Below, piece by piece: positions 46,654 through 63,712 of a stretch of 64,000 nt of DNA; the first letter of the stretch is position 1, and every line of letters starts with the position of its first letter. A program made the translations under genes and the position numbers. Origin of the DNA: Oceanihabitans sediminis (GTDB taxonomy: Bacteria; Bacteroidota; Bacteroidia; Flavobacteriales; Flavobacteriaceae); assembly GCF_003337215.1 (NCBI RefSeq), contig NZ_QPIG01000001.1:992001-1056000 (forward strand), written 5' to 3'. The notes under the pieces were generated by a model. That model had not been told where the DNA came from. It saw nothing but the letters and a program-made list of their open reading frames with translations, and did no database searches.

Positions 46654-47617
46654 AGGTCCAATTTCTCAATTTATTGAAAAACACTACTTGCATTTTAATG
46701 CAGCTGCATTAGTAGATGCAGCAAAAGGTTATGAAGCACAGTTAGATTCTGGAGCAAAAATGTTGGTTTCTCTTGCGGGAGCTATGAGTACTGCAGAACT
46801 TGGTAAAAGTTTTGCTGAAATGATTCGTCAAGATAAAGTGCAAATCATTTCTTGTACTGGAGCAAACTTAGAAGAAGATATCATGAACTTAGTAGCACAC
46901 TCTCACTATAAGCGTGTTCCTAACTATAGAGATTTAACACCAGAAGATGAGTGGGCTTTATTAGAAAAAGGATTAAACCGTGTTACAGATACTTGTATAC
47001 CAGAAGAAGAAGCTTTCAGACGCTTACAAAAGCATATTGTAAAGATTTGGAAAGAAGCAGAAGCGAATGGAGAACGTTACCTTCCGCATGAATATATGTA
47101 CAAAATGTTACTTTCAGGAGTATTAGAACAATACTATGAAATAGACATTAAAGATTCTTGGATGTATGCAGCAGCAGAAAAAAACTTGCCTATTATCTGC
47201 CCAGGATGGGAAGATAGTACTATGGGAAACATTTTTGCAAGCTACGTACTAAAAGGAGAGTTAAAAGCTAGTACCGTAAAATCTGGAATTGAGTATATGA
47301 CATTCTTAGCAGATTGGTATACAAACAATTCTCAAAACGGAATTGGATTCTTCCAAATTGGAGGAGGAATAGCGGGAGATTTCCCTATTTGTGTGGTGCC
47401 AATGTTATATCAAGATATGGAGCGCCCAGAAACACCATTCTGGAGTTACTTCTGTCAAATTAGTGACTCTACAACAAGTTATGGTTCTTATTCTGGAGCA
47501 GTACCAAACGAGAAAATTACTTGGGGAAAACTAGATATAAACACACCTAAATTTATTATAGAAAGTGATGCTACAATCGTCGCACCATTAGTTTTTGCTT
47601 ATATTTTAGGATTATAA
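46643..47617 (+). CDS. Deoxyhypusine synthase-family protein
   Basis: This 324-residue enzyme belongs to the NAD-dependent deoxyhypusine synthase family. The catalytic lysine region is conserved: Trp294-Gly-Lys296 in ITWGKLDI, preceded by GAVPNE as in human DHS. The NAD-binding GGGIAGDF lacks the His that follows in human DHS (GGG..KHH). Bacteria have no eIF5A with hypusine, and some bacterial homologues make homospermidine or related polyamines. With speA and speB upstream, a polyamine product is likely. Confidence 0.85.
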   Translation: MSTKGPISQFIEKHYLHFNAAALVDAAKGYEAQLDSGAKMLVSLAGAMSTAELGKSFAEMIRQDKVQIISCTGANLEEDIMNLVAHSHYKRVPNYRDLTPEDEWALLEKGLNRVTDTCIPEEEAFRRLQKHIVKIWKEAEANGERYLPHEYMYKMLLSGVLEQYYEIDIKDSWMYAAAEKNLPIICPGWEDSTMGNIFASYVLKGELKASTVKSGIEYMTFLADWYTNNSQNGIGFFQIGGGIAGDFPICVVPMLYQDMERPETPFWSYFCQISDSTTSYGSYSGAVPNEKITWGKLDINTPKFIIESDATIVAPLVFAYILGL

Positions 47618-49149
47618 TGGACGAAAATAAAATCGATAATATTGAGCTTAAGTATTTAACTGTTGATGATTTTCAAGAGTTAAAAGAAGCAACTTTAGCA
47701 TCTTATGCAGGAGTGCTTAATTCCTATTGGAAAAAGCACCATATTGAAGAACTTACTTCTATGTTTCCTGAAGGACAGATTGTTATAAAAATTGACGGAG
47801 ACATTGCAGGTTGTGCATTATCGCTTATTGTAGATTATGACAGTATTGATGATGAACATACTTATGAAGATATTATTGGTGGAAAATCTTTTAAAAACCA
47901 CGATCCGGATGGGGATGTTCTGTACGGAATTGATGTGTTCATCAAGCCGCAATACAGAGGATTACGACTAGGAAGAAGACTGTACGATTACCGAAAAGAA
48001 GTTTGCGAAAACCTAAACTTAAAAGGAATTGTTTTTGGAGGAAGAATGCCTAATTATTATAAGCATAAAGATTTAACTCCGAAAGAATATATTGAGAAGG
48101 TAAAGCGAAAAGAAATTCATGATCCAGTTTTAAACTTCCAAATATCGAATGATTTTCATCCGGTTCGTGTGCTTAAAGGGTATTTAGAAGGAGATACAGC
48201 TTCTAACGAGTATGCCGTTTTAATGGAGTGGGATAATATTTATTATACCAAGCCAAATAAAAAGGCAAGTACCGTAAAAACGGTGGTTAGACTTGGTCTT
48301 ATTCAATGGCAAATGCGTCCGTATAAAGATCTAGAAGATTTAATGCAGCAGGTAGAATATTTTATCGATAGTGTTTCTGCTTATAGATCAGATTTTGCTG
48401 TTTTTCCGGAGTTTTTCAATGCTCCTTTAATGGCAGAATTCAATCATATGCATGAGCCAGATGCCATTAGAGAATTAGCAAAGTTTACAGAGGTTATCGT
48501 TGAAAAACTAAAGCAATTATCTATTTCTTATAACATTAATATTATTTCTGGAAGCATGCCAGAAGTAGTAGATGATAAACTATATAATGTAGGTTATTTA
48601 TGTAGAAGAGATGGAAGCACAGAACGCTATGAGAAAATTCATGTAACTCCAGATGAAGCAAAGGTTTGGGGGATGCAAAACGGAAATAAACTGCAAACCT
48701 TTGAAACAGATGCCGGTAAAATTGGTATATTGATTTGCTATGATTCGGAGTTTCCGGAGTTGTCCCGTTTGTTGGCAGATGAAGGCATGGATATTTTATT
48801 TGTTCCATTCTTAACAGATACACAAAACGGATATTCTCGAGTTAGACTTTGTGCTCAAGCACGTGCTGTTGAAAACGAATGTTATGTTGCAATATCAGGA
48901 AGCGTTGGTAACTTGCCTAACGTAAATAACATGGATATTCAATATGCGCAATCTGCAGTGTTTACGCCTTGTGATTTTTCATTTCCAAGTAATGGAATCA
49001 AAGCGGAAGCAACTACAAATACAGAGATGATATTAGTAGCAGATGTGGACCTAAGTTTGTTGAAAGAACTACATTCTTTTGGAGCTGTAAAGAATTTAAA
49101 AGATAGAAGAAAAGACTTTTATGATGTTATTAGAGTTAATAATAAATAA
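47617..49149 (+). CDS. GNAT acetyltransferase / carbon-nitrogen hydrolase fusion
   Basis: This 510-residue protein has two domains. Residues 1-215 are a GNAT fold with acetyl-CoA-binding IKPQYRGLRLGRRLYDYRK. From about 220 a nitrilase-type hydrolase begins, with catalytic Glu (FPEFFNA), Lys (YEKIHVT) and Cys (LICYDSEFPE). The same fusion is known in Bacillus YhcX. Its start overlaps the previous stop (TAATG). Putrescine could be made by speA-speB without it, so it probably acts on the polyamine product or an amide of it. The function is unproven. Confidence 0.85.
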   Translation: MDENKIDNIELKYLTVDDFQELKEATLASYAGVLNSYWKKHHIEELTSMFPEGQIVIKIDGDIAGCALSLIVDYDSIDDEHTYEDIIGGKSFKNHDPDGDVLYGIDVFIKPQYRGLRLGRRLYDYRKEVCENLNLKGIVFGGRMPNYYKHKDLTPKEYIEKVKRKEIHDPVLNFQISNDFHPVRVLKGYLEGDTASNEYAVLMEWDNIYYTKPNKKASTVKTVVRLGLIQWQMRPYKDLEDLMQQVEYFIDSVSAYRSDFAVFPEFFNAPLMAEFNHMHEPDAIRELAKFTEVIVEKLKQLSISYNINIISGSMPEVVDDKLYNVGYLCRRDGSTERYEKIHVTPDEAKVWGMQNGNKLQTFETDAGKIGILICYDSEFPELSRLLADEGMDILFVPFLTDTQNGYSRVRLCAQARAVENECYVAISGSVGNLPNVNNMDIQYAQSAVFTPCDFSFPSNGIKAEATTNTEMILVADVDLSLLKELHSFGAVKNLKDRRKDFYDVIRVNNK

Positions 49150-49760: not shown

Positions 49761-50606
49761 TTATAAAATCTCTTTTAATAAATCATAATATTCCTTTGTG
49801 ATGTGTATGCCGTTGTGACCAGCATCGGTAATAGGGTGTAGCTTTATACTCTTTGGTTTTATTGCTTGAAGTTTCTTAGCGTTTGTTTCCGGATTAATTA
49901 AGAAATCCCGTGTTCCGTAAAAAACATGTATAGGGCAATTTACTTTGCTTACAAACTCATTCGTAGGGATTTCATATTTAATGATAAACTTAGGAACAAG
50001 CGGTGCAATTTCATCAGAAATTAAGGTAGTCCACGAATAGTAAGGAGCATTTAAAATTAGCATTTTAGGTTTGTTTTGAGATGCTACATAACTCGCTAAA
50101 CCGGATCCTAAAGAAAAGCCTAGAACAGCTATATTTTCTTCCTTATAGCGTATTTTTGTATAATCGTATACCTTTTGTGCATCTTGCAGTAGCTCGTCGC
50201 TATTGCTGTAGGAGCCATCGCTTTTACCGTAACTTCTGTAGTCAACAAAAAGCACGTCGTAATTATTTTCTAAAAATAGATGTGCGCGTTTTCCCCAATC
50301 ATGTATTGCTCCTGCATTTCCGTGATAATACAAAATTACCCCTTTAGAGTTTTCTGCTTTAAACAATACAGCATTTAAAAAAACATCTTCTTCTACTTCT
50401 ATATTAACTTCTTCAAAAGGTTCTGAGAATGTAAATACATAGTCTTTGTCTAGGTGCTTCGGATTGAAGAAAAAACGCTCTTGGTTAAAGTAGAGAAATA
50501 CCAAAGTGATTAAATAAAACAGGATAAGACCAACAATAATTCGCTTTAGACGTCTTAATATTTTAGGGAAGTTTATTTGCAATCGTTTTTCGTTTAAAAA
50601 TTTCAT
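49761..50606 (-). CDS. Membrane-anchored alpha/beta hydrolase
   Basis: The start gives MKFLNEKRLQINFPK and lies inside the upstream gene (44-base overlap). One transmembrane helix (about 26-46) precedes an alpha/beta hydrolase fold. The oxyanion region is YYHGNAGAIHDWGKRA, the nucleophile Ser is in GFSLGSG, an Asp is in YGTRDFLI and the His in DAGHNGIH. It is probably a lipase or esterase at the inner membrane. It is the last gene of the long minus-strand run. Confidence 0.85.
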   Translation of the reverse strand: MKFLNEKRLQINFPKILRRLKRIIVGLILFYLITLVFLYFNQERFFFNPKHLDKDYVFTFSEPFEEVNIEVEEDVFLNAVLFKAENSKGVILYYHGNAGAIHDWGKRAHLFLENNYDVLFVDYRSYGKSDGSYSNSDELLQDAQKVYDYTKIRYKEENIAVLGFSLGSGLASYVASQNKPKMLILNAPYYSWTTLISDEIAPLVPKFIIKYEIPTNEFVSKVNCPIHVFYGTRDFLINPETNAKKLQAIKPKSIKLHPITDAGHNGIHITKEYYDLLKEIL

Positions 50607-51945
50607 ATAAAAATACACTAAAAACTATAAAGTATTCTAAAGCTATAATCCACAGGTTTTCTGTATTACTGTTATTAGCATAGGCTAGGTAGCTAAGTAT
50701 TATAATATAACTCCAAACTAACGGATATTTGTTATTGGTGAATACCGATAAAATAAATATTGTAGAGATGTACCAGGGGTGAACGGTTGTGCTGAAAAAT
50801 AAATAAATGCTTAACACTAGTAGCATGGAGTACAGTAATTGTTCTAGGGTAGCATTTCTTTTAAATAAGGATCTAAATAGCACAAAAAGAACCACTAAAA
50901 CAGGTAGTATTTTTCCTATCACTGCAATTTCATTATAGCCTCTAAAGCTATATCCTATTTCTCTAGCAATATAGTAGATGCTAGCGTTAAATTCGAAATT
51001 CTGAAACCACAAACCTACAGTTGCTGCGTAGTTTTTTATGAATTCTGAAGAATAAAAAGGAAGAAATAATAATATAGTTGTTAAGCCAATAATGCTGTAA
51101 AATGTAAGTAGCTTAGAGATGTCTATGCTTTGTGATTTTGAAGTGATATTTTCTTTTTTAAACCATTTGAAAAATAGTGGTAATAAAATTAAAGGAATCA
51201 ATTTCACCGAAACAGAAGCAGCAAAAACAACTGCTGAAAGTTTCCATTTATTATTATAAAGTAAATACAAACTCCACACTAAAAAGAAAATCATCATACC
51301 TTCAAAATGTAGGTTTCCTGTATGCTCGATAATAATAAAAGGATTTAGGATATACCAGAAAATATGGTGAATTGGTAATTGTAGTTTTTCTAAAAGTTTT
51401 TTTCCATAAAATAAAGTTCCGAAATCGGCAGCAATAAGGAGTAGTCTTAAAACCAATGCAGAACCTAAAATACTTTTGCCTGCAAAAACTCCCGCAATAA
51501 CAAAACTTATTTGGTTTAATGGTGGGTAGTTGGTAAAATGACTACCGTTTAAAGTGCCCATTCCGGCATAAAGTTCTTCTGCTTGCGAAACAGGTAATTC
51601 GTTATTTATTAAAAAGGATTCTGGTGTGTATAAGTAGGGATTGAATCCTTCTATAATCATTCTTCCGTCCCATATAAAACGATAGAAATCTTGTGATAAG
51701 TTTGGTATGGCTAATATGAAAACAGCTCGAAATAAAAAGGCAACAATAGCTAAAAATCTAAAGTTGTTTTTATTGTCTTTCAAAAGTTTATAAAAGAACA
51801 AAAATAATACAGTGTAAAGTATAAGTAGCTTCGTGTAGTCTGTTCTAGCTAATTGGTATGCAAAAACAAAATATAGATATGCACTTGCTATTACCAGTAA
51901 AATTGGTACTTTTTTCACTTTTAAAAAAGAGGTGTTTAATAGCAT
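50563..51945 (-). CDS. Multi-span polyprenol-phosphate mannosyltransferase-like protein
   Basis: The 460 residues form about eleven to twelve hydrophobic segments, with the short loop motif SQDFYRFIWDGRMIIEGFNPY near residue 85-105. This matches GT39/GT87-type C-class glycosyltransferases that use polyprenyl-phosphate sugars. It ends inside the alpha/beta hydrolase gene and starts 11 bases after the preceding GT2 gene. With the DPM-like GT2 two genes upstream a lipid-linked mannose-type donor is plausible. Confidence 0.8.
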   Translation of the reverse strand: MLLNTSFLKVKKVPILLVIASAYLYFVFAYQLARTDYTKLLILYTVLFLFFYKLLKDNKNNFRFLAIVAFLFRAVFILAIPNLSQDFYRFIWDGRMIIEGFNPYLYTPESFLINNELPVSQAEELYAGMGTLNGSHFTNYPPLNQISFVIAGVFAGKSILGSALVLRLLLIAADFGTLFYGKKLLEKLQLPIHHIFWYILNPFIIIEHTGNLHFEGMMIFFLVWSLYLLYNNKWKLSAVVFAASVSVKLIPLILLPLFFKWFKKENITSKSQSIDISKLLTFYSIIGLTTILLFLPFYSSEFIKNYAATVGLWFQNFEFNASIYYIAREIGYSFRGYNEIAVIGKILPVLVVLFVLFRSLFKRNATLEQLLYSMLLVLSIYLFFSTTVHPWYISTIFILSVFTNNKYPLVWSYIIILSYLAYANNSNTENLWIIALEYFIVFSVFLYEIFKRKTIANKLP

Positions 51946-51956
51946 AAATTTGAATT

Positions 51957-53450
51957 TTAGGCTTTAGCGCTTAAGGATTTAAAAAACACAAAAGCAAAAC
52001 CTATAAAAAGCATTAGGTGAAAAGGGAAAAGCCCGAAGTCTCCATCTTGGTCACCAACCACAAAAGCACTATACATTCCAAAAGCAAAATATAGCATTAA
52101 TAAACCTTCAATAATTACATGGGCAGATATGTTTTTGTTGAGGTACACGTTTCCTTTCCAACTATCTTTTAAACTATGTATATTGAATTTTGGTGTTCGA
52201 ATAAATTCACTTCGTTTTCCTAGATGCCCTTCGATAACTGCAATAGAATTATGTAACGAAAAACCCATCGCGATAGAAAAAAAGGTAAAAAACATCATAA
52301 TATACTTTCCGAAGTTTTTTATTCCGGAACCATAGGTGTTTTTGTACATAAACCAATAGCAAATAAAAAAAAGGATACTGCTTATTACAAAAAAACTCAT
52401 CACATAAAAGTAAGGTTTTAAATATGTGTATTCGTTTTTTATATACAACATCGGAATGCTTAAAATAGCAACTATTAGCACGTTTAAAAACATGGTAGAG
52501 TTTAGTAAGTGTAGCAGTCCGTGCACCTTTGTTTTGGTAGAAATATTTTCACTTTTAATAACTCTTAAAAACATTTTTCTGAAATTCTCTGCACCACCTT
52601 TATTCCATCTAAACTGTTGGGATCTTACAGCACTAATTACAACAGGTAGTTCTGCAGGGGTTTCTACATCTTCTAAATACTTGAATTTCCAGTTTTTTAA
52701 TTGTGCTCTGTAGCTTAAATCTAAATCTTCTGTAAGGGTGTCTCCTTCCCAGTTTCCTGCATCGTAAATACATTCCTTTCGCCAAACACCTGCTGTTCCG
52801 TTGAAATTAATGAAATGCCCTTTGCTGCTTCTTCCTACTTGTTCTAGTGTAAAATGCGCATCTAGAGCAAATGCCTGAATTTTTGTAAGGATTGAATAAT
52901 TTCTATTAATATGGCTCCAGCGCGTTTGTATTACCCCAATTTCTTCGTCTTTAAAGTAAGGAATCGTTTGCATTAACCAGTTTTCATTAGGGAGAAAATC
53001 GGCATCAAAAATGGCGATAAACTCTCCTTTCGCAGTTTTCAAGCCTTCTTTTAAAGCACCTGCTTTAAAGCCTTTTCTGTTTGTTCTGCAAATATGTTTT
53101 ATGTCTAATCCTTGCTCTTTTATTCTGGCAATTTGTGCTGCAGTGGTGTTTATTGTTTCATCTGTAGAATCATCTAAAACCTGAATCTCTAATTTGTCTT
53201 TGGGGTAGTTGAGTTTTGCAATATTTGTGAGTAGCCGTCCCATTACGTATAACTCGTTATATACCGGTAATTGAATGGTTACAAACGGAATTTCTTCCGA
53301 ATTTGAAAAATCAAATTTTTCAGCATTGTCTCTAGTTTTCTTTGCTTTAAGATAGTTCATGAGAAGGTTGAACTGCGCCAATGCATACATGAAAATGAGC
53401 AGTAGCGAAATAGTATAAATAGCAATAATTATATAGGAAACAATTATCAT
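51957..53450 (-). CDS. Cellulose synthase-like family 2 glycosyltransferase
   Basis: This 497-residue enzyme has N- and C-terminal membrane helices around a processive GT2 domain. Visible motifs are TIQLPVYNE, VLDDSTDET, FDADFLP, TEDLDLSYR and QQFRWNKGG (Q-x-x-R-W). These are the D, D-x-D, D, Q-x-x-R-W set of CesA/CslA enzymes. It would polymerise or transfer a hexose from a nucleotide sugar. The gene overlaps the next-upstream DPM-like gene by 4 bases. Confidence 0.86.
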   Translation of the reverse strand: MIIVSYIIIAIYTISLLLIFMYALAQFNLLMNYLKAKKTRDNAEKFDFSNSEEIPFVTIQLPVYNELYVMGRLLTNIAKLNYPKDKLEIQVLDDSTDETINTTAAQIARIKEQGLDIKHICRTNRKGFKAGALKEGLKTAKGEFIAIFDADFLPNENWLMQTIPYFKDEEIGVIQTRWSHINRNYSILTKIQAFALDAHFTLEQVGRSSKGHFINFNGTAGVWRKECIYDAGNWEGDTLTEDLDLSYRAQLKNWKFKYLEDVETPAELPVVISAVRSQQFRWNKGGAENFRKMFLRVIKSENISTKTKVHGLLHLLNSTMFLNVLIVAILSIPMLYIKNEYTYLKPYFYVMSFFVISSILFFICYWFMYKNTYGSGIKNFGKYIMMFFTFFSIAMGFSLHNSIAVIEGHLGKRSEFIRTPKFNIHSLKDSWKGNVYLNKNISAHVIIEGLLMLYFAFGMYSAFVVGDQDGDFGLFPFHLMLFIGFAFVFFKSLSAKA

Positions 53451-54136
53451 TTAAAACTATATTTAAAGATCCATCCTAATATTTTAACGCCAGCCATAAT
53501 ACTTCCTTTTACAGTACCTGAAACTTTAGATACCCCTATTCTGTTTCTGTAATTCACAGGGATTTCTACGTAACTTAGTTTCTGTTTTAAAGCTTTCAAT
53601 TGCATTTCTACCGTCCAGCCATAAGTTTTGTCTACCATGTTTAGAGCAAGAAGTTTTTCGTATTTAATGGCTCTAAAAGGACCAAGGTCTGTGAATTTTG
53701 CCCCGAAAAATAGCTTCATTAAAAAGGTAGCTAGCCAATTTCCGAAAATTTGTTGCGGCGTCATGGAGCCTGACTCTCGCAATTCTTTCACTCTTGCACC
53801 AATAACAAAGTCGATATTATTTTTTATAATTGGTTGAACAATTTGATTTAACTCCTCTGGGAAGTCACTATAGTCGCCGTCTAAAAAAACAAGAATGTCT
53901 GGTTTGATTTCTTGTTTAGAAATATAATCCATTCCCTTTAAACAAGCATAACCATAACCCATGCGTTCTTCTTTTAAAACCGTAGCTCCAGCGTTTTTTG
54001 CATTGCTTTCTGTAGCGTCTGTTGAGTTGTTGCTAACTACAATCACTTCTGAAACAATTTCAGGAATATCATGAATGACTTTTGCAATAGAATCGGCTTC
54101 GTTAAAAGCTGGAATGATGACTTTTATATTGGGCAT
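53447..54136 (-). CDS. Dolichyl-phosphate mannose synthase-like GT2
   Basis: The 229 residues contain VIIPAFNEADSI, an acidic VVSNNSTDAT and LDGDYSDFPEEL (D-x-D), followed by GARVKELRESGSMTPQQ. These are typical of DPM1-like enzymes that make polyprenyl-phosphate hexose. A C-terminal segment (SGTVKGSIMAGVKILGWIFKY) may associate with the membrane. It is the donor-making partner suited to the GT39/87-like protein encoded downstream. Confidence 0.86.
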   Translation of the reverse strand: MPNIKVIIPAFNEADSIAKVIHDIPEIVSEVIVVSNNSTDATESNAKNAGATVLKEERMGYGYACLKGMDYISKQEIKPDILVFLDGDYSDFPEELNQIVQPIIKNNIDFVIGARVKELRESGSMTPQQIFGNWLATFLMKLFFGAKFTDLGPFRAIKYEKLLALNMVDKTYGWTVEMQLKALKQKLSYVEIPVNYRNRIGVSKVSGTVKGSIMAGVKILGWIFKYSFK

Positions 54137-54180
54137 TACAAGTTTTTTAGAATTTGCAAAAGTACGATTGTTTTTAGTTT

Positions 54181-55779
54181 TTATTTCTGATTTAGTAAAT
54201 CCATTAAATCTACATCGTTACCTAATAAAACTTCTGTAGGATTAATTCTGCCTTTCATAGAATCATTCTCTAGTTTTAAAACTCCTCTAGGGCAAACTGC
54301 AGAACAAATACCACAACCAACACAGCTAGAACGCACAATGTTTTCGCCTTTTTGAGCATAGGCTCTAACATCAATTCCCATTTCGCAATAGGAAGAACAG
54401 TTTCCACATGAAATGCATTGTCCGCCATTAGTAGTAATTCTGAATTTCGAAAATAATCGTTGTTGAAAACCTAAGATGGCAGCCATTGGGCAACCAAACC
54501 TGCACCAAACTCTATTTCCTAGAATTGGGTAGAAGCCGGTTCCTATTACACCAGAAAAAATAGATCCAATCATAAAGCCATAGGAAGCTCGTAGTGTTTC
54601 TGCTTCCAAAAGAAATAATTTTGTATCACTAGAAAAGTAATGCATCCCTATCAAGGTGATAATTACTACAAAATAACCTATTGCTCCATATTGTGCATCT
54701 TTTCCAAATTCCTTGCGTTTAAAAACCATGACTAAAGTGAAAATAAGGGTAAGGAATGCAGCGACCAATGCAAGGAAGATTCCTTTTGTAAGCCAATATT
54801 TTTCTGGGTCATAACTTAGGTAGGTGTAGATTACTGCGGTTGTCATAAGTACTACAAACACTAAAACGGTATGAACAAGCCAGCGTTCCAACTTCCATGC
54901 TTTTAAACTCTTGTCACTTAAATGTCTAAAGGAATCGCCTGCAGTTTCAGCTAGTCCGCCACAACCACAAACCCAAGAGCAATACCATCTTTTTCCGTAT
55001 TTATAGGTTAGGATTGGCGTGATGACGAAAATGGATATAACACCAAAAATAAGCAGTGCTAAACCAATATTACCGGCACTAATAAAATCGTCTACTCTAT
55101 ATTGTTCAAAATTATAATAGTTTAATGGCCAGATGTTTTTTAAATCATAGTAGGGGAGATTAAAGCTGTCGGAGTTTAGTCTAGCCATGAATTCTGGGAT
55201 TAAAAAAGCGAAGGCTAACTGAAAAAACATCACTGATATTGTTCGTATTTGTTCATATCGATTATGTCGGTATTTTAAAAGAAACTTATACCCGAAAACT
55301 AGAATAGCAACGGTGTATAGGGTTCCGTACACAAACCATTGGCTTGCAGGATTTCCACTTAATAGATTACTTAAAGGATCAAATAAAGAAACTAAGCCAG
55401 TGTTTGGATTGCCATCTTTGCCTAGTCCAAGTAGATGAGGGTAAAAATAAAGTACTATATAAAAAGTGGTTAAAACAATTCCGGTTAACCAACCTAATAG
55501 TCCGCGGGAAGAAAGGGATTTAAACCAAACATCATCATTTTTAATTCCTTTTGATTTTTTTAAATAAGCATCATTAGCAAAGAGAATAACTCCTTCGGTT
55601 ATTAATAATAAGGAAGCAGTTAAAGTCCATCCTCTATTTGAAAAATCCACATTCAATAATGCAAGTGATAGTATAAATAAGCCAACAACACCTAGCGTAA
55701 GGGCAATTTTTTGTTTGCTTGAAATGTCCTGTGCGTCTGGTTTTGCAAGTGACATGCTTCTATGTATTTTATTGCTCAT
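54181..55779 (-). CDS. Membrane 4Fe-4S electron-transfer protein (NapH/NosR-like)
   Basis: The 532 residues comprise about ten hydrophobic helices. Two pairs of cysteines in the membrane region (WYCSWVCGCGG and VWCRFGCPM) resemble the NosR/NapH/RdxA C-x-x-x-C motifs. A C-terminal ferredoxin domain holds two 4Fe-4S clusters (CISCGNCSSYCEMG and CVGCGICSAVCPRG). It should pass electrons through the membrane. Together with the adjoining FAD protein it may form a reductase module. Gap to the FAD gene is 24 bases. Confidence 0.87.
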   Translation of the reverse strand: MSNKIHRSMSLAKPDAQDISSKQKIALTLGVVGLFILSLALLNVDFSNRGWTLTASLLLITEGVILFANDAYLKKSKGIKNDDVWFKSLSSRGLLGWLTGIVLTTFYIVLYFYPHLLGLGKDGNPNTGLVSLFDPLSNLLSGNPASQWFVYGTLYTVAILVFGYKFLLKYRHNRYEQIRTISVMFFQLAFAFLIPEFMARLNSDSFNLPYYDLKNIWPLNYYNFEQYRVDDFISAGNIGLALLIFGVISIFVITPILTYKYGKRWYCSWVCGCGGLAETAGDSFRHLSDKSLKAWKLERWLVHTVLVFVVLMTTAVIYTYLSYDPEKYWLTKGIFLALVAAFLTLIFTLVMVFKRKEFGKDAQYGAIGYFVVIITLIGMHYFSSDTKLFLLEAETLRASYGFMIGSIFSGVIGTGFYPILGNRVWCRFGCPMAAILGFQQRLFSKFRITTNGGQCISCGNCSSYCEMGIDVRAYAQKGENIVRSSCVGCGICSAVCPRGVLKLENDSMKGRINPTEVLLGNDVDLMDLLNQK

Positions 55780-55803
55780 ATTTTTAACCTTCCTGGTATT
55801 TTT

Positions 55804-57102
55804 TTAGATACTTGTTAGCTGCTTGTTGTATGTTGTAAAAATTTCTTTTTCAAAGCTTTTAAAGAACTCTGGATCAAAATTAGCTTTCTTAAGATGTTTT
55901 ATAACGTATTCTAAACTACGTTTTTCGCTAAGCCATTTATCAAAAACTTCATGTCGCATTCTTATTCCAAAAGTATTAATGCCTTTAAATTCGTTTGTGA
56001 GTTTGTGATATTCAATTGTAATGCATTTTGTGTCATCGGGATGCTTCCAATGAAAATGATTGTGCTGCTCTTTTGGTTTTGCAAAGACCCAACCGTAGGT
56101 TTGATATTCTATATCTAAAAACTTAGCCGAGTTAAACCAATATCCGGGTTTGTATGCAAATTTATTTCCGCAGATAGTTTGCGCTACGGTTTCTCCCATC
56201 ATTCGGCCTGTGTACCAAACAGCTTCTATAGGGCTTCTTTCTCCAACGGTTTCCTGTTGCTCTGCACAATCGCCAATAGCATAAACGTTTGGAATATTGG
56301 TTTCTAAAAATCTATTTACTTTGACGCCTCTACCGATTGTAATTTCAGTGTTCTTTAAAAAACCTATATTTGGAGAAACACCAGCGGTTAATCCGACAAA
56401 GTCACATGGGGTTTCTTCTCCTGTTTCTTCGATAATTACCGATTTTACTTTGCCGTTTTCATCTGAAACTATTTCCTTTAGATTAGTATTTAATCGCAAA
56501 TCTATATGGTGATTTTTGATATGTCTATTAAGCATTTCGCTTTCGCCTTTCGGCAAAACACCATTCCAAAAGCTGGTTTCTCTAACTAAAAAAGTAACAG
56601 GAATATTTCTAGAACGAAGCATTTCTGCCAATTCTATTCCAATTAATCCGCCACCAACAATTACTGCGCGTTTACAGACTTTGTTGTTTGGTGCGTAAAC
56701 TTCTAAATTATCTAAATCTTGTTTGCTATATAGGCCTTGAACTCCTTTTAAATCTTGTCCTGGCCAACCAAATTTGTTGGGCTTACTTCCGGTGGCAATA
56801 ATTAGCTGGTCATACTGTAGGCTGTCTCCTTCAGTAAAATGAAGTGTTTTAGAAGAGGTGTCTACTGTTTTAACATAAGCTTGCTTTAGTTCGATGCTAT
56901 TTTTTTTCCAAAACCAATCTTCATATGGTTTGGTATGCTCATATTTCATGTGCCCCATGTAAATATACATAAGTGCTGTTCGGGAAAAGAAGTGTTTGGT
57001 TTCAGAAGAAATAATGGTTATTCTTTTGTCTGAAAGTTTTCTGATGTGTCTTGCAGCAGTAACTCCAGAAATTCCGTTTCCAATAATAACAACGTGGCTC
57101 AT
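55804..57102 (-). CDS. NAD(P)/FAD-dependent oxidoreductase
   Basis: This 432-residue flavoprotein has the pyridine nucleotide-disulphide reductase fold. FAD is bound at VVIIGNGISGVTAARHIR (about 3-20), NAD(P)H at VIVGGGLIGIELAEML, and the second FAD motif is NVYAIGDCAEQ. No redox-active CxxxxC is present, so it is of the rubredoxin/ferredoxin reductase type. It likely feeds electrons to the 4Fe-4S membrane protein downstream. Confidence 0.86.
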   Translation of the reverse strand: MSHVVIIGNGISGVTAARHIRKLSDKRITIISSETKHFFSRTALMYIYMGHMKYEHTKPYEDWFWKKNSIELKQAYVKTVDTSSKTLHFTEGDSLQYDQLIIATGSKPNKFGWPGQDLKGVQGLYSKQDLDNLEVYAPNNKVCKRAVIVGGGLIGIELAEMLRSRNIPVTFLVRETSFWNGVLPKGESEMLNRHIKNHHIDLRLNTNLKEIVSDENGKVKSVIIEETGEETPCDFVGLTAGVSPNIGFLKNTEITIGRGVKVNRFLETNIPNVYAIGDCAEQQETVGERSPIEAVWYTGRMMGETVAQTICGNKFAYKPGYWFNSAKFLDIEYQTYGWVFAKPKEQHNHFHWKHPDDTKCITIEYHKLTNEFKGINTFGIRMRHEVFDKWLSEKRSLEYVIKHLKKANFDPEFFKSFEKEIFTTYNKQLTSI

Positions 57103-57227: not shown

Positions 57228-57920
57228 TTAAGCAATGTGTTTGTTGTAATATAGGTATAAATCATCTGCAGAAGCACCAAGCCATTTTTTTATATAGATG
57301 GCCCAAAAATGAAACTGCAGCTTCCAAATACCATGTTCTTGGTATCTTCTCGCTGAGGTTTTTATTTTCTTATTAATTACTACAAATTGTTTTCTTGCGT
57401 AAAGTTCGTTGATTAAAATATTGTCTTCGTAGATGGTATATCCTTCATTAAATCCGCCAATTTCGTGAAATAATTCTTTGCTTATAAATTGACTTTGGTC
57501 TCCGCCACGACATGCTCTCCATGAAAACTGCGTAAGCCAGCTAGCTAAACGAAGCCACCAATGATTGCTTTCAAATTGCATTCTGAAACAGCCAGCAAGG
57601 TTGTTTTTGTTTATTTCTTGAATAATATATTTATCAAAATCTTTAGGTGGAAAGGAATCTGCGTGTAGAAAATATAAGATGTTTCCGGTAGCGGCTTTTG
57701 CACCAAGATTCATTTGTTTGGCTCTTCCTTTTTTAGAATGTAATAGCTGAATATGCTTCAAGTTGGAAACTATTTCTACAGATGCATCCGTACTTCCTCC
57801 ATCTACAACGATGATTTCTGCAATATTTTTATCGGAAGCATTTTCCATTAGGTGATCAAGCAGGTTTTTTATGTTTTCTGCTTCGTTCAACATGGGTATG
57901 ATAATGGAAACACTATTCAT
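57228..57920 (-). CDS. TIGR04283-type (arsenosugar/rSAM-selenodomain-associated) glycosyltransferase 2
   Basis: The start MNSVSIIIPMLNEAENI is at 57920; an upstream ATG would overlap the DUF547 gene and add 22 residues of weak conservation. The 230-residue GT2 domain shows VVDGGSTDAS and FLHADSFPP (D-x-D equivalent), then GGDQSQFISKELFHEIGGFNEG. This matches the family that NCBI names arsenosugar biosynthesis glycosyltransferase. It belongs with ArsS and the TIGR04282-type enzyme in the same cluster. Confidence 0.85.
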   Translation of the reverse strand: MNSVSIIIPMLNEAENIKNLLDHLMENASDKNIAEIIVVDGGSTDASVEIVSNLKHIQLLHSKKGRAKQMNLGAKAATGNILYFLHADSFPPKDFDKYIIQEINKNNLAGCFRMQFESNHWWLRLASWLTQFSWRACRGGDQSQFISKELFHEIGGFNEGYTIYEDNILINELYARKQFVVINKKIKTSARRYQEHGIWKLQFHFWAIYIKKWLGASADDLYLYYNKHIA

Positions 57921-57967
57921 GTTCTGGTATTTCTTAGAAGAAGCTAGGCTTCTTTTTCCGGGAGAAA

Positions 57968-58681
57968 CTATTCGTTTAAATCCCAATTATAATCTAAATA
58001 ACTCTTTTTTGCTTTAGGTGAAATCTTTACTTCTGTGTATAAAATTAAAAAGTCTATTAAACTTTCGTTTTGTTTAAAGTCCTTTGAGAACCATTGAAAT
58101 ATTTTAGATAGTTTTATCTCGTCTTTGGTGATTATATTTCGGCTTTTATCTGCTAAAAATTCTTTGGTAGCTTTGCTTAATTGTTCTTCTAATTTAGAAG
58201 ACGTAAATGCTTCGTTTTGTAATTTAGGGCAAGAATAAGAAGCGCAAACTATTGCAAAATGTATTCGAGGCTCGTTCATTTTACGTAAAATTTGATGTTC
58301 TATTTCGTCTAAATTATAAAGTTTATCACCAAGCTTCCATAGACGTTGTTCCCAGGGATTTTTAATGTCCTTTATGCTTTTTATAGGGTAATTTCTAAGG
58401 ATTAAATCTATAGTTAATGCATTGTATGCATTTATCCAATAAGCGAGTTTTTCGTTTTTTGACCAAGTTTCTTTTCGGTGGTTTGCACTAAGTAATTCAA
58501 TATAAGTATGTAGTTTTTTTATGTCTGTTTTAAATCCTTGATAATCTACATTTCCTTGTTTTGAAACATGTTTTTGAAGCAAACTATTGAAAATAGCATG
58601 GTCTAATGTTTGTAAATTCTTTTCCGTTCCAAAGGAAAGGGAGAAAATAAGGGTAAATGCGAAAATTAGGATGTTTTTCAT
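57968..58681 (-). CDS. DUF547 secreted protein
   Basis: The 237-residue protein has a signal peptide (ending LSFG) and the DUF547 domain: LAYWINAYNALTIDLILRNYP at about 80-100, then IHFAIVCASYSCPKL and IFQWFSKDFKQ. The NAYNA/CASxSCP pattern is the hallmark. DUF547 has a transglutaminase/papain-like Cys-His arrangement but no defined function. The start overlaps the hydroxylase stop by four bases. Confidence 0.88.
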   Translation of the reverse strand: MKNILIFAFTLIFSLSFGTEKNLQTLDHAIFNSLLQKHVSKQGNVDYQGFKTDIKKLHTYIELLSANHRKETWSKNEKLAYWINAYNALTIDLILRNYPIKSIKDIKNPWEQRLWKLGDKLYNLDEIEHQILRKMNEPRIHFAIVCASYSCPKLQNEAFTSSKLEEQLSKATKEFLADKSRNIITKDEIKLSKIFQWFSKDFKQNESLIDFLILYTEVKISPKAKKSYLDYNWDLNE

Positions 58682-59559
58682 TTCTTTAATGGGTATAATT
58701 CCTGACTAACAAAATCTTCTGGAAATGTTTCGTCACCTTCAAAACCTAATTCAATATCTCTTCCATCGTATGGGATGTAGTCAGTTTTGAAAATATAATC
58801 CCATAGACTTAATGTAATACCGAAGTTTACACCATATCTTCTGTCTTCTGGTAATTCTTTAGAGTGGTGCCAGATATGCATTTTGGGGTTGTTAAAAACA
58901 TATTTCAAGATACCGTAATCCCAGCCAATATTTGCATGGTTTAAATGTCCGATAGTAATATTGAAGAAGTGCACTAAAGCCACGTCTTGAGCAGAGAAAC
59001 CACCAATAATTGCTAGCGGAATATATTTTAATGAGTTATAAACCACAGGTTCCATCCAATGGTAGCGTAGGTGTGCGGCAAAGCCCATTTCCTTAACAGA
59101 ATGATGCACTTTATGGAAATTCCATAGAAAATCCGATTTATGAAGTAATCTATGTGTCCACCATTGAACAAAGTCAATAACAATAAAAAAGATTAGAATT
59201 CGCAGCCAAAAAGGGAGTTCGTTGATGTCTAATACCTGAAAACTAGATACAGATAAACCTACTAAGCCTAATACATCATTAAAAAGCTCTGCTGCCGAGT
59301 TGGATAAAGCAATTAGCACAATTAAGTTTAGTATGAAGAAATTAAAAAACATGTAAAAGGTGTCTAGCCAAAAATCTTTACGGAATAAAGACTGGTTTTT
59401 TCTCCAAGGAAAAATAGCTTCTAAGGCCCAAACTACAAGGGAAATGATAATTAAACCATAGAAGTAATTCTCCCAATTCAACTCCATTAAAACAGATTGT
59501 TTTATGTAGTTCCAATAATCGGAATACGAGTTTTTTATTATATCAACGTATTTTTCCAT
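58678..59559 (-). CDS. Sterol desaturase / fatty acid hydroxylase-family membrane enzyme
   Basis: The 293 residues contain four or more membrane helices and the di-iron histidine boxes: HRLLH (about 135), FHKVHHS and, further on, HIWHHS. This is the FA hydroxylase family. Substrates in bacteria range from lipids to carotenoids. Its presence in this operon suggests that the product of the pathway is attached to, or is, a lipid. A gap of 110 bases separates it from PNP. Confidence 0.87.
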   Translation of the reverse strand: MEKYVDIIKNSYSDYWNYIKQSVLMELNWENYFYGLIIISLVVWALEAIFPWRKNQSLFRKDFWLDTFYMFFNFFILNLIVLIALSNSAAELFNDVLGLVGLSVSSFQVLDINELPFWLRILIFFIVIDFVQWWTHRLLHKSDFLWNFHKVHHSVKEMGFAAHLRYHWMEPVVYNSLKYIPLAIIGGFSAQDVALVHFFNITIGHLNHANIGWDYGILKYVFNNPKMHIWHHSKELPEDRRYGVNFGITLSLWDYIFKTDYIPYDGRDIELGFEGDETFPEDFVSQELYPLKK

Positions 59560-59669
59560 AACTATATTCTAAACAGGTTTTATTAAATGAACCTGTAAAA
59601 ATACTTCCATTTACTCTTTAGTTCTGTAACTTTTGATACACAGCAAAGCTCTGTTACAACTTACTGAAA

Positions 59670-60482
59670 TTATAAATTTTTAATTAACTCTTTGAGTAGG
59701 GTAATCATGTCTGGTTCTGCTTTTGCAGCCATGGCAATAATTTCGTTAATGTTTACAGGTTTTAAGTTAGCAGGATCACATTCATCTGTTAAAACAGAAA
59801 CTGCAGCAGCTTTTAATTTTAAATGGTTTGCTACAATAATTTCTGGAACGGTACTCATTCCTACGGCATCTGCACCAATAATTTTTAGCATTCTGTATTC
59901 TGCTCTTGTTTCTAATTGCGGACCAACAACACTAGCGTACACACCTTCGTGTAACTTGATGTTGTTTTCTTTAGCTATACTACGAAAGGTTTCGTTGATT
60001 TTTGTGTCATAAGGAGCGCTCATATCTACAAATCGTTCTCCTAATGCAGAAACACCTTTAAAGGCTAGTGGAGAACTTCCTTGAAGATTGATATGGTCTT
60101 CAATAAGCATTAATTCCCCTTTTTTGAAATTGGTATTTATTGCTCCGGATGCATTAGAAACTAGTAAGGTTGTAATTCCTAACTTTTCCATGATACGAAC
60201 CGGATAGGTTACATCTTGTAAAGAATATCCTTCGTATACATGAAAACGACCTTGCATAATCACTACTTTTTTGCCTGCTAGATCCCCATAAATAAGTTTT
60301 CCTTTGTGAAATTCCACAGTTGCTGTTGGGAAGTTTGGAATATGGTTGTAGCTTATTTCTTTTAAAATAGTTACTTCTTCTAAAAGTTTACCAAGTCCGG
60401 TTCCTAAAATAATTCCTATTTCTGGTTTATCAAATCCTTTATCTTGTAAGTATTCTACGCTTTCGTTAATGTATCTAGTCAT
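59670..60482 (-). CDS. Purine nucleoside phosphorylase (class I)
   Basis: This 270-residue trimeric-type PNP cleaves a purine nucleoside with phosphate. It shows GIILGTGLG, the phosphate-site GRFHVYEGY, VSNASGAIN, and VVGPQLETRAEYRML. The base-recognition residue, Asn243 in the human enzyme (SLITNK), is Asp233 here (SVLTDEC). An Asp at this position favours 6-aminopurines such as adenosine. In an ArsS cluster the natural substrate may be an adenosine derivative. It overlaps the preceding TIGR04282 gene by eight bases. Confidence 0.92.
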   Translation of the reverse strand: MTRYINESVEYLQDKGFDKPEIGIILGTGLGKLLEEVTILKEISYNHIPNFPTATVEFHKGKLIYGDLAGKKVVIMQGRFHVYEGYSLQDVTYPVRIMEKLGITTLLVSNASGAINTNFKKGELMLIEDHINLQGSSPLAFKGVSALGERFVDMSAPYDTKINETFRSIAKENNIKLHEGVYASVVGPQLETRAEYRMLKIIGADAVGMSTVPEIIVANHLKLKAAAVSVLTDECDPANLKPVNINEIIAMAAKAEPDMITLLKELIKNL

Positions 60483-61089
60483 TGTTACTTATTAAATTTT
60501 TTAATGTGGTATTGTTTTTCATATCTTCAAAAGTATCAATATCATTTAATACTTCTAATTGATGTATTTTTAATTTATATAAATCCTTCAAAGTATCTTT
60601 AAAAACCGAAGATGTGCTCCATTTTTTGTCTTTAAAAATAGCTTCATTCAAGGTTTTCATTCCTAGTAAATAATAGCCGCCGTCTTTTGCCGGACCTATA
60701 ACAATATCGCGTTTATTTAGCTTTTGAAAAGCTTCTTCGATATGTTTTTCTTTTAAATCGAATAAATCACTGCCAACAATTATAACTTTTTCGTAGTTGT
60801 TGTTGAAAGCATTTTGAAAGGCGTGCAGCATTCGTTCTCCCAGATCTTCTCCTTTTTGAAGATATTTTAGGTATGTAGCATTATCCCAAATATCTTCTTT
60901 GTTAATTTCTTCAGAATAATAAACTGCCTTGTCGCTGTCTATATTTCTTATAGTCTTTTCGGTGTGCTCAAGTAAATAGCTGTAAATATGTAAAGCGGAA
61001 GCATCACCTATAGTTTTTGCTAAACGTGTTTTTACTTTCCCAAGTTCTGGGTTTCGTGTAAAAATAATAATTAGGTTTTTGCTATTCAC
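60475..61089 (-). CDS. TIGR04282-type (arsenosugar/rSAM-selenodomain-associated) transferase 1
   Basis: The 204 residues form a CofC/MobA-like nucleotidyltransferase or glycosyltransferase domain. Motifs are FTRNPELGKVKTRLAKTIG, IIVGSDLFDLKEKHIEEAF, IGPAKDGGYYLLGMK and LNDIDTFEDM. This is the family annotated as arsenosugar biosynthesis glycosyltransferase 1. It overlaps rhodanese by four bases and PNP by eight, so the three are a single translation unit. Confidence 0.88.
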   Translation of the reverse strand: MNSKNLIIIFTRNPELGKVKTRLAKTIGDASALHIYSYLLEHTEKTIRNIDSDKAVYYSEEINKEDIWDNATYLKYLQKGEDLGERMLHAFQNAFNNNYEKVIIVGSDLFDLKEKHIEEAFQKLNKRDIVIGPAKDGGYYLLGMKTLNEAIFKDKKWSTSSVFKDTLKDLYKLKIHQLEVLNDIDTFEDMKNNTTLKNLISNND

Positions 61090-61604
61090 TTTAAGTTTTT
61101 ATTAGGGTTAGGGTAAATTTTATTTCCGTTATGTAGCCATTTGCTCCATTCTTCAGAAAAAGTATGCACATCATCGGTTTCTTCTTTCTCTAAGTTATAG
61201 GTTGGGAAGTTGTTGTTTTTCCATTCAAATATACCGCCGTATAAATTGCGTACATTGGTATAACCTGCTTTGTGAAGTTGTTCTGCTATCCTTTCAGACC
61301 GAACACCAAGAGAACAATATACAACTATATGTTCTTGTTTGTTTTTTAGTAGTGTGCTAGTTTCTTCTAAATTGAAATTATTAAAACCAATATGAAAGGC
61401 TCCTTTTATGTGACTTATTTGAAATTCATCAATTTCTCGCGCATCTAAAATTATAGCTTTAGTTTTTGGCATTGCCAATTCTTGAACAGAAATATACGGA
61501 ACACTTTTAGTATTAAGCTTATTTAGTAATTCTGAAAGATTTTCTTGTGAAAAACCTATTGCCGAAAACAATAAAACAAATATGTATAAGATGCTTTTTT
61601 TCAT
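61086..61604 (-). CDS. Rhodanese-domain secreted protein
   Basis: The 172-residue protein has a signal peptide (ending IGFS) and a rhodanese domain: AIILDAREIDEFQISHIKGA and the active-site loop VYCSLGVRSERIA with Cys. It would act in the periplasm on sulfur, selenium or arsenic chemistry; rhodanese-like folds also occur in arsenate reductases. It is co-transcribed with arsS. Confidence 0.88.
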   Translation of the reverse strand: MKKSILYIFVLLFSAIGFSQENLSELLNKLNTKSVPYISVQELAMPKTKAIILDAREIDEFQISHIKGAFHIGFNNFNLEETSTLLKNKQEHIVVYCSLGVRSERIAEQLHKAGYTNVRNLYGGIFEWKNNNFPTYNLEKEETDDVHTFSEEWSKWLHNGNKIYPNPNKNLK

Positions 61605-61619
61605 ATTTAGAATCCTTTG

Positions 61620-62690
61620 TTAATTGGAAGCCACCGTACCTTGACAGCTGCTTCCCGCTCCAGCGGTACAGCCATAACAATGTTGAGAAATCACAATATC
61701 GCGATCTTGTAATAAGCTTTCGTTGTATTCTGAAATATGTTTTACTTTACTATTTACAGGCAATTCTAGCATTTGATTAAAGTCACAATCGTATAAATAA
61801 CCATCCCAACTCACAGATAGTGTGTTTGTGCACATAACATTTTTAACTGCGGAAGGATTATAAGCTTCTACTAAAGCATACATATAATCTTCGTAGTTTT
61901 CTGAAGCTATAAGATAATCTAAAAATCTGCTAATAGGTAAATTTGTTATAGCAAATAAATTATGAAACTGAATATCGAAATCTTGCAATAAAGCCTTTTT
62001 GAAATCACGTTCTAAGGCAGCCTGGTCTCCTGGTAAAAATGCTCCGGAAGGGTTGTATACCAAGTCTAATTTTAAATTACTATTAGGTATACCGTAACCT
62101 ATGGCATTCAAATCTTTTAATGCTTGAATAGATTGTTTGAAAACACCATTACCACGCTGTTTGTCTGTTTTTCCTTGTGTCCAATGTGGCATAGAGGAAA
62201 CCACGTGAACCTTGTGTTTTTTGAAAAATTCCGGCAAGTCATGATATTTTTTATTAGCTCGAATAATGGTTAAGTTAGATCGAACAATAAAGTCTTTAAT
62301 TCCCGCTTTGGAAGCTTCTTCTACAAACCACTTAAAATTAGGATTCATTTCTGGAGCACCACCAGTTACATCTAGCGTATGGGCTCCAGTGTTTTTTATA
62401 ACCTCCAAACATTGTTGCATGGTTTCTTTGGTCATGATTTCTTTTCTGTCAGGACCAGCATCCACATGGCAATGTGTACAAACTTGATTGCACATATAGC
62501 CAACGTTTATTTGAAGAATTTCAAGTTTTTTTGGGCGTAATGGAAACTGATTGCTTTCTGCTATTTTTTTTGCAAAAGTTGGAAGTTCGCCATTTTGAAA
62601 AATACCATTAGAGAGAATTTCTAATTGTTTATTCGCCTGTGCTAATTTGCTTTCTCTTTTATGTAGGGATTGTGTTTTTAGTTTCGTCAT
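61620..62690 (-). CDS. arsS: ArsS-like radical SAM/Cys-rich domain protein
   Basis: ArsS uses SAM radically to transfer a 5'-deoxyadenosyl group to dimethylated arsenic. The cluster motif CNQVCTHC (Cys67, 71, 74) is followed by VDAGPDRKEIM and LDVTGGAPEMNPNFKWFV. The C-terminal Cys-rich domain ends with MCTNTLSVSWDGYLYDCDFNQ-type sequence and QHCYGCTAGAGSSCQG (Cys338, 341, 349). In some species a Cys here is selenocysteine; here all are TGT/TGC cysteine codons. At 356 residues it is full length. No arsM is nearby. Confidence 0.9.
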   Translation of the reverse strand: MTKLKTQSLHKRESKLAQANKQLEILSNGIFQNGELPTFAKKIAESNQFPLRPKKLEILQINVGYMCNQVCTHCHVDAGPDRKEIMTKETMQQCLEVIKNTGAHTLDVTGGAPEMNPNFKWFVEEASKAGIKDFIVRSNLTIIRANKKYHDLPEFFKKHKVHVVSSMPHWTQGKTDKQRGNGVFKQSIQALKDLNAIGYGIPNSNLKLDLVYNPSGAFLPGDQAALERDFKKALLQDFDIQFHNLFAITNLPISRFLDYLIASENYEDYMYALVEAYNPSAVKNVMCTNTLSVSWDGYLYDCDFNQMLELPVNSKVKHISEYNESLLQDRDIVISQHCYGCTAGAGSSCQGTVASN

Positions 62691-62743
62691 ATTAAAAGAT
62701 TAGACTTGCTTTTTAATTCGTTTACTTCATTAACTGCAGTCTA

Positions 62744-63079
62744 TTAACCGTCTAGCTTATTCACTTTATTCATCATTTGTACACCGTGAACTAAGGTTGC
62801 ACCACCGCGAATAGCTCCTGCAACGTGTAATGCTTCCATCATTTCTTCTTTGGTGATTCCACGTTGTAAGCCATCACCGGTATATGCGTCAATACAATAC
62901 GGACATTGAATAGTATGAGCAACCGCTAAAGCGATTAAAGATTTTTCTCTTTCAGAAAGGGAACCTTCTTTAAAAACCGAATTATAATACTCGAAGAATT
63001 TGCTTCCTAGCTCTTCGTTCCATTCAGAAATTTTACCAAATTTTTTAAGATCAGATGGGTCGTAATAAGTTTTTTGCAT
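62744..63079 (-). CDS. ArsS-associated AhpD/CMD-family protein
   Basis: The start at 63079 gives MQKTYYDPSDLKKFGKI; a longer frame upstream adds an untypical leader. The 111-residue carboxymuconolactone decarboxylase-like protein has CxxC in TIQCPYCIDAY (Cys59, Cys62) and ALHVAGAIRGGATLVHG. This is the peroxidase-like family that regularly accompanies ArsS. It heads the cluster 53 bases before arsS and may act in redox protection of the arsenic or selenium intermediate. Confidence 0.87.
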   Translation of the reverse strand: MQKTYYDPSDLKKFGKISEWNEELGSKFFEYYNSVFKEGSLSEREKSLIALAVAHTIQCPYCIDAYTGDGLQRGITKEEMMEALHVAGAIRGGATLVHGVQMMNKVNKLDG

Positions 63080-63148: not shown

Positions 63149-63156
63149 CAAAAATA
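63149..63156 (-). promoter_or_regulatory. -7 element of ArsS cluster
   Basis: TATTTTTG on the minus strand matches TAnnTTTG, 70 bases upstream of the CMD start. A -33 element at usual spacing is not clear. Confidence 0.5.
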
Positions 63157-63189
63157 TAAGATTATCTAAGTTCTATTTTTAGGGCAAAA

Positions 63190-63217
63190 AAAATCCCGGC
63201 TTTTCAGTCGGGATTTT
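63190..63217 (-). terminator. Terminator of guanine deaminase gene
   Basis: AAAATCCCGGC (63190-63200) pairs with GTCGGGATTTT (63207-63217) with one G-U pair; on the minus strand a long U run follows. It separates guaD from the ArsS cluster. Confidence 0.9.
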
Positions 63218-63238
63218 AATTTGAATAATTTCAGAAGT

Positions 63239-63712
63239 TTAATACTCTGTTTTATCTTCTTTTTGACTCCAAATTTTAAATGCTTCAATAGCTACTTCTG
63301 GAGCAACTCTTTCAAAAGGGATGCTTCTTTTTTCGTATGGTAACGGAATTTCTTTGTAGATAAATTCGTCGTCAAATCCTATGTCTGCAGCTTCTTTTTG
63401 GCTACTTCCATAGTATACTTTATCTGGTCTTGCCCAGTAAATTGCGCCTAAACACATAGGGCAAGGCTCGCATGAGGTGTACACTTCACAACCGTCTAAC
63501 TGAAAAGAGCCTAGGTTTTTACAAGCGTCTCTAATTGCAGTTACTTCAGCGTGTGCTGTTGGGTCATTTGTTGAGGTTACTTTATTGTTTCCTTTCCCAA
63601 CAATTTTTCCATCTTTAACAATAACGCAACCAAATGGTCCTCCTTCGTTATTATTCATTCCTTTTAAAGCTGCGTTAACAGCTTCCTGCATAAATTTTTC
63701 TTTCTCTGTCAT
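63239..63712 (-). CDS. guaD: Guanine deaminase
   Basis: This 157-residue cytidine-deaminase-fold enzyme converts guanine to xanthine. It closely follows Bacillus GuaD: NEGGPFGCVIVKDGKIVG, NDPTAHAEVTAIRDACK (zinc His and catalytic Glu), SCEPCPMCLGAIYWARPDKV (zinc cysteines) and GFDDEFIYKEIPLP. The start at 63712 (MTEKEKFMQE) fits; an ATG 99 bases upstream adds no conserved sequence. It has its own terminator. Confidence 0.92.
   Translation of the reverse strand: MTEKEKFMQEAVNAALKGMNNNEGGPFGCVIVKDGKIVGKGNNKVTSTNDPTAHAEVTAIRDACKNLGSFQLDGCEVYTSCEPCPMCLGAIYWARPDKVYYGSSQKEAADIGFDDEFIYKEIPLPYEKRSIPFERVAPEVAIEAFKIWSQKEDKTEY

Follow-up and report, generated by a model that had tools for sequence, protein, structure and literature searches.

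How does an arsenosugar-type gene cluster operate when no gene for an arsenic methyltransferase lies within it? The question is raised by a row of eight minus-strand genes built around the radical SAM protein ArsS in a 64,000-nucleotide stretch of the Oceanihabitans sediminis genome (contig NZ_QPIG01000001.1, positions 992,001 to 1,056,000; hereafter the window). An original prediction made from the DNA letters had placed these genes at 57228-63079, and open reading frames together with NCBIfam and Pfam profile scores confirm their positions and identities (Table 1). The row is probably an operon for arsenosugar biosynthesis that depends on a methyltransferase acting in trans. Its arsenosugar-type reading holds, as TIGR04169, TIGR04282 and TIGR04283 all stand alongside ArsS, each above its cut-off. 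Measured against the NCBIfam arsenosugar set (TIGR04167, TIGR04169, TIGR04282, TIGR04283 and NF038099), the window contains four of five members above cut-off and lacks NF038099, while a membrane hydroxylase and a DUF547 protein, neither with an arsenosugar label among its NCBIfam matches, are additional. The cluster is of a known kind with these two extra parts, which are common in the host family, Flavobacteriaceae.

Table 1. Features of the ArsS cluster and its downstream neighbours, in window coordinates.
Feature	Position	Strand	Profile	Bits (threshold)	Remark
CMD/AhpD-like "arsenosugar biosynthesis-associated peroxidase-like protein"	62744..63079	-	TIGR04169	188.7 (cut-off 120)	
ArsS, radical SAM, DUF3641 C-terminal domain	61620..62690	-	TIGR04167	444.6 (cut-off 300)	
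Rhodanese (rhoda_near_glyco)	61086..61604	-	NF045521	199.3 (cut-off 145)	
CofC-like nucleotidyltransferase relative (DUF2064)	60475..61089	-	TIGR04282	217.3 (cut-off 134)	
Purine nucleoside phosphorylase (PNP)	59670..60482	-	NF006054	344.5 (cut-off 218)	"TD" motif
110-bp gap, PNP to hydroxylase gene	59560..59669				AsSugarArsM site in G093; no relic detected
Membrane FA_hydroxylase	58678..59559	-	PF04116	99.0 (gathering score 31)	
DUF547 protein	57968..58681	-	PF04784	105.8 (gathering score 27)	
GT2-type glycosyltransferase	57228..57920	-	TIGR04283	250.7 (cut-off 182)	ATG start taken
FAD/NAD(P) oxidoreductase	55804..57102	-			near arsS in 34/111 stretches
NapH/MauN-like membrane 4Fe-4S protein	54181..55779	-		below cut-off	near arsS in 26/111 stretches
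AglJ-like GT2	53447..54136	-		below cut-off	neighbour, only a candidate member
PgaC/CelA-like GT2	51957..53450	-		below cut-off	neighbour, only a candidate member

The absence of ArsM described in the original prediction is true of the window and untrue of the genome. Within the genome assembly (2.9 Mb, 20 contigs, 97.3% complete), a canonical arsenite methyltransferase gene is present on another contig (C14:338450-339253; NF008823, 371 bits against a cut-off of 263), the only match above cut-off, with an ArsR-type helix-turn-helix gene directly 5' of it. The proposed genome search for arsM and arsR thus found both types side by side, and the lack of any arsM in the genome, named beforehand as one half of what would speak against the prediction, was not observed. 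The inference drawn from the missing ArsM fails, since a canonical arsM lies elsewhere and relatives carry a second type of enzyme, AsSugarArsM (NF038099), at the site of the 110-bp gap between the PNP and hydroxylase genes. AsSugarArsM itself is absent from both window and genome, where the protein scoring best against NF038099 (98.8 bits, cut-off 400) is none other than the canonical ArsM. The gap is the sole long one in a row whose spacings from CMD to TIGR04283 are 53, 15, -4, -8, 110, -4 and -19 bp, the last value assuming a TTG start of the TIGR04283 gene and becoming +47 with the ATG at 57920. In G093 (locus L131), whose hydroxylase is the most similar one (91%), AsSugarArsM is located between PNP and hydroxylase, exactly at the position of this gap, and the flanks of the gap align between the two genomes at 79 and 85% identity with the AsSugarArsM gene gone in the window.

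The two methyltransferase types appear to replace each other across the host family. To describe their distribution, we scanned 149 host-family genomes drawn evenly from a larger group and compiled the co-occurrence sets by hand from match listings. ArsS is found above cut-off in 111 of them. The scan with NF008823 gave 18 matches above cut-off, taken as canonical, and a divergent kind scoring 112-134 bits, many of whose matches lie within a few kb of arsS; this kind corresponds to the named family AsSugarArsM (584 bits in one example). AsSugarArsM exceeds its cut-off in 85 of the 149 genomes, all 85 of which encode ArsS. The 111 ArsS genomes consequently divide into 82 with AsSugarArsM only, 3 with both types, 12 with the canonical type only (including the window's genome) and 14 with neither, and canonical ArsM is also found in 3 of the 38 genomes without ArsS. 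Canonical ArsM is present in 12 of 26 ArsS genomes lacking AsSugarArsM versus 3 of 85 possessing it (p = 7e-7; Fisher tests here and below carry no kinship correction).

Gene order around ArsS is conserved in relatives. We inspected about 20 kb round each of the 111 arsS genes, or less where the contig ended sooner, and found CMD in 107, TIGR04282 in 104, PNP in 87, rhodanese in 71, DUF547 in 65, TIGR04283 in 58 and the hydroxylase in 40. This recurrence indicates that the grouping is more than chance. CMD directly precedes ArsS in 108 of 111 stretches, DUF547 comes next after the hydroxylase in 33 of 40 cases and TIGR04283 next after DUF547 in 54 of 62. The gene after PNP, for the 84 PNPs encoded on the ArsS strand, is AsSugarArsM in 60 cases, the hydroxylase in 9 (as in the window) and DUF547 in 4, with the stretch ending there in 7. 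A further 80 arsS loci, the best 80 of 587 confirmed, show CMD near ArsS in 76, PNP in 59, AsSugarArsM in 44, DUF547 in 36 and the hydroxylase in 23. By record titles they come mostly from Flavobacteriaceae (Winogradskyella, Algibacter, Gelidibacter, Polaribacter and others) plus a few other Bacteroidota, and they overlap with the 111 stretches (L182 and the G039 stretch, for example, share their positions on equally long contigs), so that the two sets are not independent. A search of plasmid records returned only 4 partial matches, each covering 3-6% of the query. The gene set is divided between two loci in some relatives. A TetR-type gene follows arsS in 14 of the 111 stretches (L074, L087, L094, L097 and others), and several of these genomes have PNP, AsSugarArsM and DUF547 at a second locus, judged by coordinates. 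Genes, families, their order, the second locus carrying arsM and the co-occurrence within the host family are all direct observations.

For all steps past ArsS, and for the roles of the hydroxylase, rhodanese, DUF547 and CMD proteins, we infer the following scheme. Canonical ArsM, encoded behind the ArsR-type gene on the other contig, would make dimethylarsenic, to which ArsS would attach a 5'-deoxyadenosyl group. PNP could then strip off adenine to leave an arseno-ribose 1-phosphate, the CofC-like TIGR04282 nucleotidyltransferase may activate the arseno-ribose sugar and TIGR04283 may pass the activated sugar on to an acceptor, either glycerol or a lipid. The target of the membrane hydroxylase would be the product or this acceptor, while rhodanese and DUF547 may act at the envelope. 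In two papers, ArsS is described as acting with ArsM in the first arsenosugar steps of Synechocystis, and a radical SAM enzyme as adenosylating arsenic (PMC8552651, PMC12159101). The genome studied here likewise combines ArsS with an ArsM for these first steps, as reported for Synechocystis sp. PCC 6803 in those papers; in the window, ArsS shares its row with PNP, TIGR04282, rhodanese, hydroxylase, DUF547 and TIGR04283. The arsinothricin cluster arsQML also pairs an ArsM with a radical SAM enzyme for making organoarsenic compounds (PMC8552651), but the radical SAM protein (ArsL) and the group added are different (PMC12159101). No description of the late arsenosugar or arsenolipid steps was found in the accessible literature, and the host family offers a recurrent gene order with PNP, TIGR04282, TIGR04283, the hydroxylase and DUF547 as candidates for them, in genera that include Winogradskyella and Gelidibacter. 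Among titles and abstracts, we found no paper linking the hydroxylase, DUF547 or SusC/SusD to ArsS, which is weak evidence of absence, the coverage having excluded most subscription journals.

Several observations weigh against an arsenosugar operon served by ArsM in trans. With a tree built from concatenated ArsS, CMD and PNP sequences of 85 of the 111 genomes (26 omitted for lack of PNP in the stretch or for long branches, namely G002, G064 and G065), an independent-pairs test on supported branches yielded a mean of 3.6 pairs in the expected direction against 0.1, with a median sign-test p of 0.125 that falls short of significance, and 6 of the canonical-only genomes fall into one 16-row clade. 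A tree from ArsS alone for all 111 had little resolution (4 starred of 108 inner branches) and yielded no more. Tree-corrected support for the swap of ArsM types is no more than suggestive. Neither ArsM type is found in 14 of the 111 ArsS genomes, and the canonical match of G121, one of the 12 counted, crosses a stop codon. Outside the host family, ArsM occurs independently of ArsS (51 of 91 genomes with ArsS versus 71 of 129 without) in a phylum sample of 247 genomes, again tabulated by hand from match listings. The small host-family part of this sample (27 genomes, some shared with the 149-genome set, those without ArsS mostly of the one genus g128) shows ArsM in 13 of 13 genomes with ArsS versus 1 of 14 without. 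Lastly, PNP is present in all 111 ArsS genomes but also in 22 of the 38 lacking ArsS, nearly always as a single copy, and thus looks like a general PNP placed in the operon.

The PNP may serve purine salvage and the arsenosugar pathway alike. Its own genome contains no second match of this kind at E <= 1e-20. The aspartate of the TD motif, for which human PNP N243 and MTAP D220 form the background, occurs in 82 of the 83 PNPs encoded in clusters (the remaining one did not match the pattern) and also in PNPs of other bacteria. An adenosine-specific PNP dedicated to the ArsS product was rejected on this wider occurrence of the motif together with the single copy and the 22 ArsS-less genomes. Two ArsS-less genomes (G018 and G104) have PNP beside DUF547 and retain a hydroxylase paralogue; G018 matches ArsS at the C-terminus alone (54.7 bits), while in G104 an ArsM-like gene (229.9 bits) lies some 26 kb away from DUF547, and both look like decayed pathways. 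The general, single-copy nature of PNP also means that one or more members of the row may serve ordinary purine salvage, in line with the view that unrelated genes are held together by history or that the set acts on another element such as selenium, to which older rSAM/selenodomain family names point by name only. We regard this as highly improbable given that the named arsenosugar families exceed their cut-offs in the window, that AsSugarArsM was not found without ArsS in the 149 genomes and that CMD before ArsS and DUF547 before TIGR04283 mostly keep their order. The different element suggested in the original prediction gains no support within the host family.

The hydroxylase is linked to ArsS within the host family only. 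Its four histidine motifs (HX3H, HX2HH, HX2H and HX2HH) are invariant in 20 aligned homologues, its structure model is poor (pLDDT 57.4) and its only NCBIfam match is OlsE (NF052566), whose cut-off of 475 bits it fails at 96.9 bits, so that an assignment as OlsE was rejected. Hydroxylase matches were counted at E<1e-80, or at 63% identity for the cluster type, thresholds set after the match lists had been seen. Proteins at least 63% identical are found in 49 of the 149 genomes (own genome included, one match partial), each of which also encodes ArsS; paralogues of about 48-60% identity form a second group, sited elsewhere in genomes. Either subgroup is present in 103 of 111 ArsS genomes versus 8 of 38 without ArsS, and in the host-family part of the phylum sample, a small one, in 12 of 13 versus 3 of 14. 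Outside the host family the corresponding counts are 11 of 91 and 10 of 129, which rules out the hydroxylase as an obligate pathway part across the phylum; the links of both hydroxylase and ArsM to ArsS are a host-family trait and not general to ArsS. In the phylum sample, two host-family genomes without ArsS (G285 and G297) encode hydroxylases of 66-67% identity, a level on a par with the cluster type. The cluster-type hydroxylase is therefore not strictly tied to ArsS.

These data bear on a special case of the arsenosugar operon, in which TIGR04283 would place the arseno-ribose on the head group of a lipid that the OlsE-like hydroxylase would hydroxylate, giving a membrane arsenolipid as end product, the kind of product suggested in the original prediction. 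The membrane type of the hydroxylase with its intact histidine motifs, its sub-threshold similarity to OlsE and its host-family co-occurrence with ArsS are consistent with such a product, and arsenolipid production in Synechocystis is reported according to the title of a cited reference. Set against this are the missing link outside the host family, the eight ArsS genomes of the host family without a hydroxylase, the two ArsS-less genomes with a close homologue and the sulfur-related neighbourhood of the paralogues, and we consider an arsenolipid possible but somewhat doubtful. That neighbourhood was inspected in 20 stretches (L264-L283) hand-picked from the match list with one representative per neighbour group identified: 15 of them contain a sulfite-dehydrogenase-like, a metallo-beta-lactamase/rhodanese or a rhodanese gene within about 6 kb, and the small neighbour of the sulfite-dehydrogenase-like gene has one CxxCH motif. 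This hints at a hydroxylase group acting near sulfur or arsenic chemistry. Identity between window and G093 is uneven along the row (hydroxylase 91%, PNP 80%, DUF547 71%), and an exchange of the hydroxylase gene is possible. In G125 (C1:2460496-2461614), a hydroxylase piece (residues 198-286, 64% identity) and DUF547 occupy neighbouring places with 381-aa open frames, as if a shortened hydroxylase gene had been joined to DUF547.

DUF547 accompanies ArsS in a similar manner, being present in 99 of 111 host-family genomes with ArsS versus 5 of 38 without (E<1e-50, likewise set after the lists had been seen). Residues H141, C146 and C151 are nearly invariant among 32 sequences, and the structure model built with these is confident (pLDDT 92.3). 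A comparison of this model with PDB folds gave no match at E <= 0.001, which is not proof of a new fold. DUF547 and the rhodanese are probably exported, judged solely by eye from signal-peptide-like N-termini.

The ArsS genomes without any ArsM raise the alternative that the operon detoxifies imported methylated arsenic, for example algal DMA, with arsM being optional. Besides these 14 genomes, a module of an SSF-type transporter and a metallophosphoesterase lies by arsS in 19 of 111 stretches, 17 of which also contain SusC and SusD, and ArsM is lacking in 8 of the 19 genomes with this module versus 6 of the 92 without (p = 3e-4, kinship-uncorrected). ArsS outside the host family is, in addition, equally common with and without ArsM. 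However, 97 of the 111 ArsS genomes in the host family do contain ArsM, the window's among them, and the window's cluster has no transporter module. Import as the general purpose of the operon is therefore unlikely, while some strains may draw on methylated arsenic from their surroundings. In L103, L115, L124, L163 and others, SusC/SusD, the transporter and the metallophosphoesterase are inserted by arsS, often with an extra TIGR04282-like gene. Natural ArsM-less variants permit asking whether an imported supply of methylated arsenic is enough for ArsS. A more speculative and quite improbable extension is that the hydroxylase group oxidizes carbon next to a heteroatom, with the cluster form acting beside ArsS and a rhodanese on a C-As compound and the paralogue keeping to its sulfite-dehydrogenase- and rhodanese-type neighbours, that the pathway both builds and remodels a membrane arsenolipid and that ArsM-less strains are fed imported methylated arsenic via SusC/SusD. 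If true, arsenosugar making would be uncoupled from arsenic methylation.

ArsS possesses the motif CNQVCTHC (CX3CX2C), whose cysteines are invariant in 12 aligned sequences; arsS contains no in-frame TGA and hence encodes no selenocysteine, and a sequence search of the PDB found no relative of ArsS at E <= 0.001. A CxxC motif (CPYC) is present in the CMD protein, for which the ATG at 63079 is the likelier start compared with the TTG at 63151. The rhodanese shows an active-site-type loop, CSLGVRS, at residue 97, and the TIGR04282 protein is related to the solved structure 3cgx. Between the upstream deaminase gene and CMD (63152-63239), an AATCCCG-N10-CGGGATT element followed by a T run looks terminator-like by eye; a hairpin scan allowing loops up to 8 did not list it.

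The same-strand row continues 3' of the cluster after a 125-bp gap with genes for the FAD/NAD reductase, the membrane ferredoxin, two GT2-type proteins, a GT87-like protein and a hydrolase. The oxidoreductase and the NapH-like ferredoxin are possible electron donors. Some relatives also have this downstream row (window 49761-57102) adjoining their ArsS cluster, including ones that lack hydroxylase and DUF547 (L070, L173 and L244). Farther along, on the plus strand at 44325-49149, decarboxylase-, ureohydrolase- and deoxyhypusine-synthase-like genes together with an acetyltransferase/nitrilase-like fusion form what appears by eye to be a polyamine-type set.

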